A program made the translations under genes and the position numbers. A model generated the notes under the pieces. That model saw nothing but the letters and a program-made list of their open reading frames with translations, ran no database searches and was not told the origin of the DNA. From the NCBI GenBank assembly GCA_018222985.1, contig JAAEZG010000001.1, forward strand, positions 62,001 to 126,000: 64,000 nucleotides of DNA. Reading direction: 5' to 3'. This document shows positions 26,140 through 62,137 of this stretch, one piece after another. The stretch comes from Gammaproteobacteria bacterium (lineage in GTDB: Bacteria > Pseudomonadota > Gammaproteobacteria > Enterobacterales > Alteromonadaceae). Every line of letters begins with the position of its first letter. Within the stretch, counting starts at the first letter, position 1.

Positions 26140-26143
26140 AAGG

Positions 26144-26262
26144 CGTTATTCGTTATTCGTCCGTTCGCTTCGCTCACTGTTGGTCCGCGCTTCGCGCTGT
26201 TCGACGAATAGTGAGGCCTCGCCGAACGGACGAACAGCGAAGCGCACGAAAAACGAAAAACG
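26144..26262. repeat. 119-bp imperfect palindromic intergenic element
   Basis: The outer arms CGTTATTCGTTATTCGT (26144-26160) and ACGAAAAACGAAAAACG (26246-26262) are inverted copies with two mismatches. Inside them CGTCCGTTCG (26159-26168) pairs with CGAACGGACG (26223-26232). CTCACT pairs with AGTGAG, and GCGCTTCGCGC forms a small central hairpin. The element fills the space between the convergent lysS and PLP-enzyme genes, starting 4 bases after one stop and ending 1 base before the other. Its layout resembles REP/MITE-type repeats. It may also serve as a bidirectional terminator, although T-runs are weak. Confidence 0.75.
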
Positions 26263-59415: not shown

Positions 59416-60435
59416 ATGAGTCATGTTCAAGTTGCATTAGCCCTAGGTTCAGGGGCTGCCCGAGGCTGGTCACACATTGGTGTTATTAAAGCCTTAAAAG
59501 AAATGGGCATCGAAGTTAACATGGTCGCAGGCACTTCAATCGGCTCCCTTGTGGGGGCCGGTTTTGCTTCTGGCCGACTCGATGAATTAGAAGAGTGGGT
59601 GCGAGACATGGGCCGCTGGCAGGTGTTTAACCTGCTCGATTTTGGTTTTAGTCACGGTGGCTTGGTGCAGGGCGAAAAAGTGTTTAATCACGCCCGCGAG
59701 CGTTTCGGCGCAATTAACATTGAAGACATGCAAGTTACTTATGGTGCTGTAGCCACCGATTTATTTACTGGCCGAGAAGTTTGGTTGCGTAAAGGCGATG
59801 TGTATGACGCCTCACGTGCGTCTTGCTCAATGCCTGGCTTGTTGGCGCCAACTGGCATTAATGGGCGCTGGTTAGTCGATGGTGGCTTAGTTAATCCAGT
59901 ACCCGTGTCGTTATGTCGCGCGTTGGGTGCAGATTTCGTTATTGCGGTGAACTTGAACTCACAGCTCACCACCACAGCGGTTGAGGCACGTAACAAATAC
60001 CTAGCACCTGGTAAAGATCATCAAGAACGTGAGCCCCAAGCCGACCTACATGGGCATAACACGCCAACGACCACACAGCCAGCAGAAGGCAATAAGCCGA
60101 GTGATGAAGCCGAAGAAGGGTTCTTCAAAAGCTTCCTATCAACAAGCCAAAGCTATTGGGATGGCATGAAAGAAAAGTTCAATGGCCCATCGTACAAAGC
60201 GCCGGGCATGTTGGGCGTCATGGCAGGCTCTATTGATATTATGCAAGAGCGTATTACTAAGGCTCGTTTAGCAGGTGATCCGCCCGATATTCTTATTCAG
60301 CCGAAGCTTGGACATATTAGTCTGATGGAATTTGAGCGCGGCAATGAGGCCATTGATGTGGGTTATGAAACCACAATGCGTATGAAAGACTTCATTCTCT
60401 CAGAGCTACAACTCTACTCCGAACGTCGTGGCTGA
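59416..60435 (+). CDS. rssA: Patatin-like phospholipase RssA family
   Basis: Predicted serine acyl hydrolase. The 339-aa protein has the patatin oxyanion motif LGSGAARGWSHIGVI near residues 10-24, nucleophile S41 in GTSIG, and the catalytic Asp D155 in VDGGLVNPVPVS. A hydrophilic insert (about 195-240, rich in Gln, Pro, Thr, Glu) separates the catalytic region from a C-terminal IQPKLGHISLMEFERGNEAID segment near 295-315. In E. coli the rssA-rssB pair is linked to RpoS turnover, but rssB is not beside it here. It follows recA by 21 bases. Substrate unknown. Confidence 0.88.
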   Translation: MSHVQVALALGSGAARGWSHIGVIKALKEMGIEVNMVAGTSIGSLVGAGFASGRLDELEEWVRDMGRWQVFNLLDFGFSHGGLVQGEKVFNHARERFGAINIEDMQVTYGAVATDLFTGREVWLRKGDVYDASRASCSMPGLLAPTGINGRWLVDGGLVNPVPVSLCRALGADFVIAVNLNSQLTTTAVEARNKYLAPGKDHQEREPQADLHGHNTPTTTQPAEGNKPSDEAEEGFFKSFLSTSQSYWDGMKEKFNGPSYKAPGMLGVMAGSIDIMQERITKARLAGDPPDILIQPKLGHISLMEFERGNEAIDVGYETTMRMKDFILSELQLYSERRG

Positions 60436-60446
60436 GAAGAGCAAAA

Positions 60447-60605
60447 GCGATATTAGCTAGTGGATATTAGATATCAGCTAACAACTAACAACTAACAAAA
60501 AAGGCGCCACATGAGGCGCCTTTTTCCTTTCTGATATCCGATATCCAATAGCTGCTATCGTACTTGCCTTTCTTCTGATATCTAATATCTACTAGCTAAT
60601 ATCGC
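60447..60605. repeat. Inverted-repeat element between rssA and putP
   Basis: A 31-bp arm at 60447-60477 (starting GCGATATTAGCTAGT) is repeated inverted at 60575-60605 with 30 of 31 bases matching. Between the arms lie a short ACTAAC repeat (three tandem copies of AACTAAC type near 60480-60496), a bidirectional terminator and an extra partial copy of the right arm. The whole structure spans 159 bases in a convergent spacer and resembles a small non-coding mobile or REP-like repeat. Confidence 0.78.
60497..60525. terminator. Bidirectional terminator between rssA and putP
   Basis: GGCGCC (60503-60508) and GGCGCC (60515-60520) enclose ACATGA, with six A residues before and five T residues after. 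The symmetric A/T tracts let it stop both rssA (rightward) and putP (leftward) transcripts. Confidence 0.88.
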
Positions 60606-60615
60606 AGTTGCCCTT
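60531..60615. repeat. Tandem 41-bp degenerate repeat, two copies
   Basis: Copy A (60531-60571) and copy B (60575-60615) match at 32 of 41 bases, both beginning CTGATATC and ending TTGCC followed by T-rich bases. Copy B is also the right arm of the surrounding inverted repeat and runs into the putP stop codon (60614-60616). Confidence 0.7.
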
Positions 60616-62137
60616 AATGGTGCAACTGCTGTTCCATTTTATCGAACGTTGATTGCAACTGTGCATCTGGTTCAGCCGTTAAATGGCTTACCACAAGAAC
60701 GGCAATGGTGCTAAGAATAAAGCCTGGAATAATCTCATACACCGTGCTACTTAAGGTCGCACCGTCAGCTAGCACTGGCGCGTATATCCAGAACAATACG
60801 GTAGCGGCACCCACAACCATACCGGCTAAAGCACCGTGACGATTCATGCGCTTCCAGAACAAGCTAAGAATAATCACCGGACCAAATGCCGCACCGAAGC
60901 CAGCCCAAGCATTCGCGACAAGACCTAAAATGGTATTTTCTGGGTCCCACGCTAATGCGATAGCAACTAACGACACCAGTAATACCGAAATACGGCCAAC
61001 AGTCACTAATTCTCTGTCGCTAGCGTCACGGCGTAAAAAGGCTTTGTAGAAATCCTCGGTTAATGAGCTTGAGGTAACCAATAGTTGCGATGAAATGGTA
61101 CTCATAATCGCAGCTAAAATAGCAGCTAACAAGAAGCCTGAAATAAGTGGGTGGAATAAAAACTGCGAGAAGATGATGAAAATAGTTTCAGCATCTTTTA
61201 ATTGCATTTTTGTCTCTGCAACGTAAGCAATACCCACAAAGCCGGTTACCATGGCACCAATAATGGAAACAAACATCCACGAGATACCAATGCGACGCGC
61301 CGCCGGTACGTCTTTAACCGAACGAATTGCCATAAAACGCACAATAATATGCGGTTGCCCAAAGTAGCCTAAACCCCAAGCTAGCAGCGAAATTATGCCG
61401 AGAAAAGACAGCTGGTTGAGCATGGGGTCAGCTATGTTTGCGTCGCGGAAAAAGGCAAGAAAATCAGGGTTGATTGACTCAACCGTGTTGGTCACTTGGC
61501 CAATACCACCTAAGTCAAAAATGGCGACAATAGGTACCAGCACAAGCGCAACAAACATGATGCAGCCTTGCACAAAGTCGGTCATAGAAACCGCTAAAAA
61601 GCCACCAAATAGGGTATATGCACAAACCACACCCGCAGTAACCCAAAGGCCTAGGCTGTAGTCTAAGCCGAACGCTGAGCTCGCGAAGAGCTTACCGCCA
61701 GCAACCAGACTTGCTGATGTATATAAAGTGAAGAAAACGATAATGACTACCGACGAGAACACGCGTAAAAGGCGGGCTTTGTCGTCAAAGCGATTGGCAA
61801 AGTAGTCAGGAATGGTAATGGAATCGTTGGCAACCTCGGTATAGGTTCGCAACCGTGGTGCGACAACGATGTAATTTAAATACGCACCAATGAGCAAGCC
61901 AACAGCTATCCATAATTGCGACACACCGGAAACGTAAATGGCGCCGGGTAAGCCCATGAGCATCCAACCACTCATGTCTGAAGCCCCTGCCGAAAGGGCA
62001 GTAACCGCCGGGCCTAGCTTACGGCCGCCGAGCATGTAGCCCGATACGTCGTCAGTTGATTTTTTATATGCATAAAGGCCAATGCCTAGCATAACGATAA
62101 AATAGAGCGCTAATGAAACGAGTGTACCTGTTTCCAA
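60614..62137 (-). CDS. putP: Sodium/proline symporter PutP
   Basis: Sodium-coupled proline uptake at the inner membrane, family SSS. The 507-aa protein has about 13 membrane segments. Early signatures include YMLGGRKLGPAVTALSAGASDMSGWMLMGLPGAIY, cited as a span near residues 34-68 with the sodium-site Asp and Ser. VTAGVVCAYTLFGGFLAVSMTDFVQG lies near 166-191. The start is TTG at 62137; the AGGAG ribosome site overlaps the sapF stop codon, so it is probably translated from the sap transcript. It ends inside a repeat-bearing spacer. Confidence 0.95.
   Translation of the reverse strand: METGTLVSLALYFIVMLGIGLYAYKKSTDDVSGYMLGGRKLGPAVTALSAGASDMSGWMLMGLPGAIYVSGVSQLWIAVGLLIGAYLNYIVVAPRLRTYTEVANDSITIPDYFANRFDDKARLLRVFSSVVIIVFFTLYTSASLVAGGKLFASSAFGLDYSLGLWVTAGVVCAYTLFGGFLAVSMTDFVQGCIMFVALVLVPIVAIFDLGGIGQVTNTVESINPDFLAFFRDANIADPMLNQLSFLGIISLLAWGLGYFGQPHIIVRFMAIRSVKDVPAARRIGISWMFVSIIGAMVTGFVGIAYVAETKMQLKDAETIFIIFSQFLFHPLISGFLLAAILAAIMSTISSQLLVTSSSLTEDFYKAFLRRDASDRELVTVGRISVLLVSLVAIALAWDPENTILGLVANAWAGFGAAFGPVIILSLFWKRMNRHGALAGMVVGAATVLFWIYAPVLADGATLSSTVYEIIPGFILSTIAVLVVSHLTAEPDAQLQSTFDKMEQQLHH

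Follow-up and report, generated by a model that had tools for sequence, protein, structure and literature searches.

The spacer between two convergent genes of this Pseudidiomarina genome, which we take to be rssA (59416-60435, forward strand) and putP (60614-62137, reverse strand; these and the other gene names used here are the earlier reader's or presumptive names from the sequences), is filled by a palindromic element. The best explanation, and on balance a probable one, is that this element is a non-coding palindrome with arms of tandem heptads, and that the PF05635 protein IVP (23S rRNA-intervening-sequence protein) is the putative specificity and mobility factor of such palindromes. Taken together, the heptad palindromes and the IVP genes flanked by heptads suggest a previously undescribed type of mobile DNA.

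Within the window (the whole stretch of DNA that was analysed, 64,000 nucleotides), the inverted 31-bp arms described in the first-pass annotation were recovered at 60447-60477 and 60575-60605, with 30 of 31 bases identical (BLAST E-value 6e-10 within the 64-kb window), as were the diverged inner copy of the right arm (60529-60571 versus 60573-60615, 34 of 43 positions identical at a spacing of 44 bp) and, in the centre, the ACTAAC repeat (60478-60497) and the symmetrical terminator (60498-60525). In full, the arms extend out to 60437 and 60615 (41 nt, 90% identity), the rssA stop codon lying 2 bases before the start of the left arm at 60437 (Table 1). A single 7-base register runs through the arms and the ACTAAC stretch, with an identity of 0.73 at lag 7 over 60447-60497 and of at most 0.35 at lags 3-6 and 8-13, and the ACTAACA count is one unit lower in the orthologues of G012 (P. 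donghaiensis) and G019 (P. woesei) than in the genome under study (G000). The string GATATYMGATATC, with up to one mismatch allowed, has 6 matches in the window compared with 0.10 expected, 4 of the 6 being in the rssA-putP spacer. The predicted RNA fold of the element lies 10.8 and 11.2 standard deviations below shuffles for the two strands. A comparison of positions 60300-60800 with Rfam gave nothing at the curated score, only sub-threshold matches to microRNA and sRNA families that were taken as hairpin or terminator look-alikes, and the locus that holds the element (L001) gave no match at the gathering score. The tandem 7-base units that mark the heptanucleotide SSR (STRR) class are present in the element, which contains no PF05635 ORF and does not lie in a 23S rRNA helix.

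Table 1. Coordinates, in the window, of the parts of the rssA-putP element and of the element downstream of lysS.
Feature	Position	Strand	Description
Left arm	60437..60477	+	Outer end AAnnnCAAnnnCG, then GATATTA GCTAGTG GATATTA GATATCA G
ACTAACA heptads	60478..60497	+	Register common with left arm
Rho-independent terminator, symmetrical	60498..60525	.	14+14 nt, GGCGCC core
Inner right arm, diverged	60529..60571	-	44-bp tandem duplicate of outer right arm
Outer right arm	60575..60615	-	End overlaps putP stop codon (60614-60616) by 2 bases
Family B element after lysS	26140..26262	.	CGTTATT heptads, boundaries by eye

The arms belong to a family of degenerate heptads, GATATTA GCTATTA GATATYR GATATTA (family A), with about 44 sites in this genome. 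The earlier proposal of a multicopy repeat element was borne out by a genome-wide search of the assembly (2.44 Mb, 14 contigs), which gave at least 45 match clusters, at least one of which (C11:174253) looks like a chance intragenic match; the list is a lower bound because 40 of 64 first-look candidates were scored. By pattern count the genome holds 85 family A arms. A profile made from 12 arms and searched against 8 kb of the window, 35 stretches of the same genome and 80 named loci yielded 162 clusters, 133 with both arm types and 29 with one, counts that are no genome-wide rates since the loci had been preselected for arms. The left type (L) precedes the right type (R) in all 133 mixed clusters, and tandem arms are common (88 LR, 17 LRR, 12 LLR, 7 LLLR and 9 longer layouts). 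The same consensus, AAnnnCAAnnnCGATATTAGCTATTRGATATYRGATATTAG, emerges from 126 left and 133 right ends, and outside the arm ends conservation falls near background, with a weak T bias over three positions. Identity at lag 7 within the arms is 0.728, compared with 0.281 after shuffling. An asymmetric core of the GATGTWTCGGG type occupies 46 of 131 centres, and is replaced at rssA-putP and a few other convergent loci by a terminator-like hairpin. The rssA-putP copy has the AAnnnCAAnnnCG ends, the GATATTA-type heptads and the L-centre-R layout of the family, its terminator taking the place of the usual centre of about 30 nt. No target-site duplication of the kind that marks an IS-derived MITE was detected in 115 elements over 486 combinations of offset and length, the best giving 28% identity versus 25% for shuffled pairs. 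Family A arms lie at or close to the ends (L064, L068) or starts (L049, L065, L066) of several contigs of this assembly, two of which have identical sequence there, and longer arrays have therefore probably been collapsed in assembly. At L048, about positions 2500-2700, four tandem right arms (units of 43-44 bp) follow an apparent tRNA 3' end.

Convergent siting, which the first-pass annotation had noted, holds for rssA-putP itself and fails as a rule: before orthologues were collapsed, 26 of 146 placed elements were convergent and 30 divergent, compared with 90 in tandem surroundings (49 with both neighbours on the minus strand, 41 on the plus strand), and 5 elements apparently lie inside ORFs. 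Many copies adjoin a stop codon or a ribosome-binding site. With orthologues collapsed, 19 of 43 tandem loci have a stop codon no more than 3 bp from the element and 21 of 43 have the next start codon 5-25 bp from it, and at least one end abuts a stop codon in 12 of 15 convergent loci (both ends in 5), all distances being based on simple ORF calls, so that some are wrong. In a subset of right ends (L058, L061, L213, L216 and L228) the sequence CGCACTAAGGTTTT closely precedes a start codon, and the ribosome-binding site thus appears to be part of the element.

Presence of the arms varies among relatives, as the earlier reader had envisaged: they occur in the rssA-putP spacers of G000, G019, G012, G011 and G022, that is, in 5 of the 25 genus genomes in which putP was found. 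Neither of the two results that would have refuted the earlier reading, single-copy arms and an identical spacer in distant relatives, was obtained. Two of the 20 genomes without arms apparently have a different upstream gene (by eye), and the spacers of G040 and G009 carry short heptads of another sequence; that of G009 (L090) has a CTGTTCA heptad array directly before the terminator. By eye, relatives that lack the arms also have a terminator-like hairpin, of differing sequence, in the spacer downstream of putP; the GGCGCC core of the terminator in the window is common to the arm-less G010 and G021 and absent from the nearer G040 and G015. Among the matches listed in a pattern scan of genome contigs, at least 80 loci, all belong to Pseudidiomarina or to an Idiomarina-named MAG, and of 16 genomes from other genera of the order, 6 gave weak matches to the element (best E-value 4e-7).

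Three families were distinguished in these spacers: A (GATATTA heptads), B (CGTTATT heptads, the lysS type) and C (GTAGCCCGGCG, resembling GTAG REPs). The lysS element, which starts right at the lysS stop codon, had been assigned to a different family from the rssA-putP element; this stands at the level of sequence (GATATTA versus CGTTATT) and is too narrow in that both are heptad palindromes. The heptad of the lysS element is of the kind that flanks the IVP gene of this genome. A- and B-type families replace one another in orthologous spacers of sister species. Across two regions of conserved gene order in six closely related genomes, scored by regular expression (which missed some elements, such as the G040 copy at s11-12, a B element by eye) and with some spacers lying between doubtful short ORFs, 8 spacers hold more than one of the families A, B and C across species, and none of the three was seen in 13 spacers that were scored in three or more genomes; one further spacer has A in five species and B in the sixth (by eye). 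Scars of A ends remain beside B or C elements at ndk-rlmN in G019, G012 and G015 and at s10-11 in G012 (by eye), and are read as replacement in place. Family C, which looks like a true GTAG REP, is placed in several spacers (hscA-fdx, hisS-yfgM and others in G019, G012 and G011) such that the TAG of GTAG is the upstream stop codon.

The near-identity of the two arms had earlier been read as pointing to gene conversion or a recent origin. This reading is not supported, since arms that differ at no more than one core position are found in 20 of 107 elements. Gene conversion between arms was likewise rejected over the 107 pairs, core identity being 0.826 within elements and 0.819 between them. 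In G022, both arms at rssA-putP carry the rarer heptad GCACTTA, which would fit local conversion at this spacer alone. Covariation was examined in 56 flank-independent elements chosen by flank orthology (selection by arm similarity, which kept 25 of 107, was too harsh), and appeared at position 20 (P at most 0.0015 in three resamplings), weakly at position 27 and at no other position, while identity of the variable end triplets was a little rarer than expectation (P 0.004-0.021; 56 elements). Selection on RNA through G-U wobble pairs was rejected, with 57 sense and 57 antisense mismatches and hence no sense-strand bias; together with the few covarying positions this makes strong selection for an RNA stem less likely.

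The connection with IVP comes from the solitary arms. A look at these loci for a full IS with family A ends gave 5 solo L/R pairs less than 4 kb apart, 3 of which enclose a PF05635 ORF (the others being L130, 3182 bp, and L163, 1050 bp); in these three, from G011, G022 and G023 (P. tainanensis, P. marina and the Idiomarina-named MAG), the arms are 406 bp apart, both ends fit AAnnnCAAnnnCG and GATATTA heptads flank the gene. The ORF enclosed in G011 was compared with Pfam and NCBIfam and matched PF05635 (E-value 1.6e-34) and TIGR02436, 'four helix bundle protein', while the others were assigned by PF05635 search. A PF05635 gene is present as one copy each in 17 of 26 genus genomes (in the genome under study at G000:C5:340893-341183), and none was found in 14 control genomes. 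It stands before a MurJ-like gene in 14 of the 17, other genes following it in G009, G010 and G012. CGTTATT-type heptads flank it in G000, G019, G012 (where the IVP copy is truncated), G040, G015, G003, G013 and G041, and other heptads in G017, G004, G005, G010 and G002, those of G009 being weak. Lag-7 identity of at least 0.6 was reached by the flanks of 12 of 17 genus loci (16 of 17 with slightly different flank cuts) versus 0 of 16 controls, both flanks reached at least 0.55 in 9 of 17, and inverted repeats scoring at least 13 in 11 of 17 versus 0 of 16. Between G000 and G019, IVP is 64% identical and the downstream gene 97%, from which IVP looks to have been exchanged in place, its arms along with it; the G000 protein is 76-78% identical to its counterparts in G013, where the downstream gene is 91% identical, and G010.

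The same arrangement extends beyond the genus. Among 274 sampled genomes of Gammaproteobacteria, 57 match PF05635 (52 above the curated cut-off), 49 of the 57 with a single match. In 29 loci, the best-scoring per genome with the genome under study excluded, flank lag-7 identity reached 0.6 in 23 (6 missing the threshold), versus 3 of 25 controls, which were stretches 700-900 bp away and, as with the flank controls in general, mostly coding sequence. It reached 0.55 on both sides in 14 of 29; no other lag tried (4-6 and 8-13) exceeded 3 of 29, and one control lag (12) gave 5 of 25. Inverted repeats scoring at least 13 occur in 19 of 29 class loci and in 0 of 25 controls. PF05635 is present in 31 of 72,556 plasmid records, 29 of them cyanobacterial; of 15 plasmid loci read (14 cyanobacterial), 11 passed at lag 7 (4 missing the threshold) versus 1 of 15 controls, 5 passed at lag 8, and 9 had inverted repeats scoring at least 13 versus 1 of 15. 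Phage records searched for the protein gave no match. Other non-coding gaps of the same loci contain heptads in 0 of 5 class and 2 of 2 plasmid cases, the genus loci having no such gaps. The more alike two IVPs are, the more alike are their heptads (Mantel P 0.0005 for 42 of 46 loci, 4 being dropped for weak heptads or short proteins; 0.022 for the genus alone and 0.001 for the class alone), a correlation that shared ancestry alone could give. At L282 (277-2799), one of the 29 class loci, a 23S (LSU) rRNA gene contains an IVP relative interrupted by stop codons, and 6 of 32 loci scanned have a tRNA gene no further than about 100 bp from the IVP match (L271, L274, L276, L277, L278 and L279). 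In the cyanobacterial plasmids L283, L296 and L294, IVP sits between CRISPR genes (cas6/cas4, cas10/cmr3), where such copies are probably intercistronic insertions rather than CRISPR components.

Arm load is higher where the gene is present. The 17 genomes with IVP hold 0-369 A and B arms and the 9 without it 0-16, a difference with a one-sided P of 1.3e-4 that is uncorrected for phylogeny and includes two IVP-less genomes below 90% completeness. The family flanking IVP is not necessarily the abundant one: the A-rich G000, G019 and G040 (85, 123 and 35 arms) have IVP flanked by B, G012 has 42 A arms and a truncated, B-flanked IVP, and G022, with an A-flanked IVP, has the most B matches (304). 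Two unusual IVP heptads are not dispersed: all 6 matches of the G005 IVP heptad in its own genome, and all 24 of that of G010, lie at the IVP locus, the G010 pattern being multi-site in G041 and a few others. The TTGGTTA pattern shows copy locations alone; its control counts equal its own since it is near-identical when reversed. The anatomy firmly ties IVP to heptad palindromes, and points only weakly to IVP as their mobiliser.

Several known systems resemble parts of this one. Palindromes of the ERIC/YPAL type are, as here, about 100-170 bp long, sited in transcribed spacers and without coding capacity; they have a fixed consensus, unlike the heptad arms described here, and we know of no link between them and an IVP gene. 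In the 23S rRNA intervening sequence (IVS) with its S23p ORF (PF05635, TIGR02436), a PF05635 ORF likewise lies inside stem-forming terminal inverted repeats, the arrangement found in G011, G022 and G023. The elements described here differ in lying between protein genes, the copy in the window also lacking an ORF, and multicopy non-coding derivatives do not figure in the IVS accounts available to us; in the Coxiella 23S IVS, the S23p ORF is preceded by tandem heptamers (PMC4990558). REPs and REPINs with RAYT, as outlined in PMC3733652, are also inverted short units with tens of extragenic copies and a repeat-flanked protein gene, whereas family A has no GTAG ends, its arms are 7-base tandem repeats and the linked protein is PF05635 rather than a Y1/HUH transposase. 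The heptanucleotide repeats of Nostoc and Xanthomonas (PMC4692102) and the TAACTGA repeats of Beggiatoaceae (PMC4679880) are likewise tandem 7-base units, dispersed and intergenic, but the portions of these two papers at hand describe neither a link to PF05635 nor an L-centre-R element with fixed ends. A literature search over titles and the openings of abstracts returned nothing tying PF05635 to dispersed heptad palindromes, and of five arm strings of 15-17 bases used as queries, one matched, in a fungal paper.

Under the preferred explanation, IVP would act as specificity and mobility factor, its five-subunit ring gripping an arm of about five heptads, one heptad per subunit, on single-stranded DNA or RNA. 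It would help to copy the hairpin into transcribed spacers, by way of RNA or single-stranded DNA, and gene-less, non-coding copies would survive there; the rssA-putP copy may be an old, passive product, now a long hairpin around a two-way terminator. We infer the pairing of subunit and heptad, and the copying through RNA or single-stranded DNA, from the following observations. S23p of X. campestris is described as a toroidal homopentamer (PMC4990558), and sequence comparison gave a single relative of solved structure, 2gsc, with 5 chains. In addition, PF05635 is reported (PMC10053308) to resemble in sequence and structure Avd, an accessory protein of DGRs, which use reverse transcriptase; Avd acts with that enzyme in the DGR.

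Passive growth is an unlikely alternative, in which heptads expand by polymerase slippage and template switching at hairpins makes palindromes of them, with no transposition and with IVP merely tolerating the sites. In one survey, as cited in PMC4679880, heptads were the commonest 5-11-nt repeat class in most genomes, 7 nt having been proposed as a polymerase footprint, and the varying ACTAACA count among G000, G012 and G019 and the frequent tandem arms agree with slippage. Sharp common ends and the asymmetric centre (46 of 131) at unlinked loci, however, need copying from place to place, the arms within an element are hardly more alike than those of different elements, and IVP genes in several groups are flanked by heptads that differ from gene to gene. 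Retention for a host function, as an mRNA hairpin, terminator or RNase III site and whatever the origin, seems to us no more probable than passive growth: the very stable predicted folds, the terminator in the rssA-putP centre and the right ends CTAAGGTTTT, an apparent ribosome-binding site before several genes, are offset by equal G-U counts on the two strands (57 versus 57), by little arm covariation and by orthologous spacers that often hold other families in close species and none in more distant ones.

Exchange of spacer alleles between species by homologous recombination, the elements themselves not replacing one another, would explain why the types at s10-11 cross apparent species groups and why its right flank follows type, with an identity of 0.993 between G000 and G012 (same type) versus 0.927 and 0.933 for the other pairs. 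Over eight spacers compared in G000, G019 and G012 (seven of the multi-family eight, plus s18-19), however, flanks of 150 bp are no more alike between copies of one element type in any consistent way (left 0.922 for the same versus 0.923 for different types, right 0.965 versus 0.951), and the A-end scars (by eye) stay beside B and C elements; we regard exchange as decidedly improbable. Mobilisation of family A, in the manner of REPINs, by the Y1 (RAYT-type) transposase of the genome would account for the inverted pair, the short spacer, the missing target duplication and the extragenic siting, and Y1_Tnp is encoded in 19 of 26 genus genomes. It is nevertheless very improbable, as the end profile has no GTAG at family A ends, Y1_Tnp has no match in the element-rich G022 or in G023 (88% complete), G014, G020 and G007 have Y1_Tnp and no A or B matches, and A arms are absent from beside the gene at 6 of 6 usable Y1 loci.

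The heptanucleotide repeats of spacers and the function of IVP/S23 proteins have so far stood apart, each lacking an explanation. Should both belong to a single system, each could be put to a direct test: IVP gains a ligand that can be read beside its own gene, and an extensive class of 'junk' repeats gains a candidate mobilising protein; this would also caution against taking IVP genes in CRISPR or other operons as functional partners. A wider and more doubtful proposal, possible in our view yet short of probable, is that IVP/S23 proteins confer specificity on a widespread class of mobile DNA, each ring reading its own heptad, with one repeat per subunit, and driving the copying of heptad-armed hairpins into transcribed spacers and 23S rRNA. 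Rings that read their own heptads would account together for the orphan intervening sequences of 23S rRNA, for the intercistronic palindromes that substitute for one another in Pseudidiomarina, and for the long-known heptanucleotide repeats of Nostoc, Xanthomonas and other organisms.
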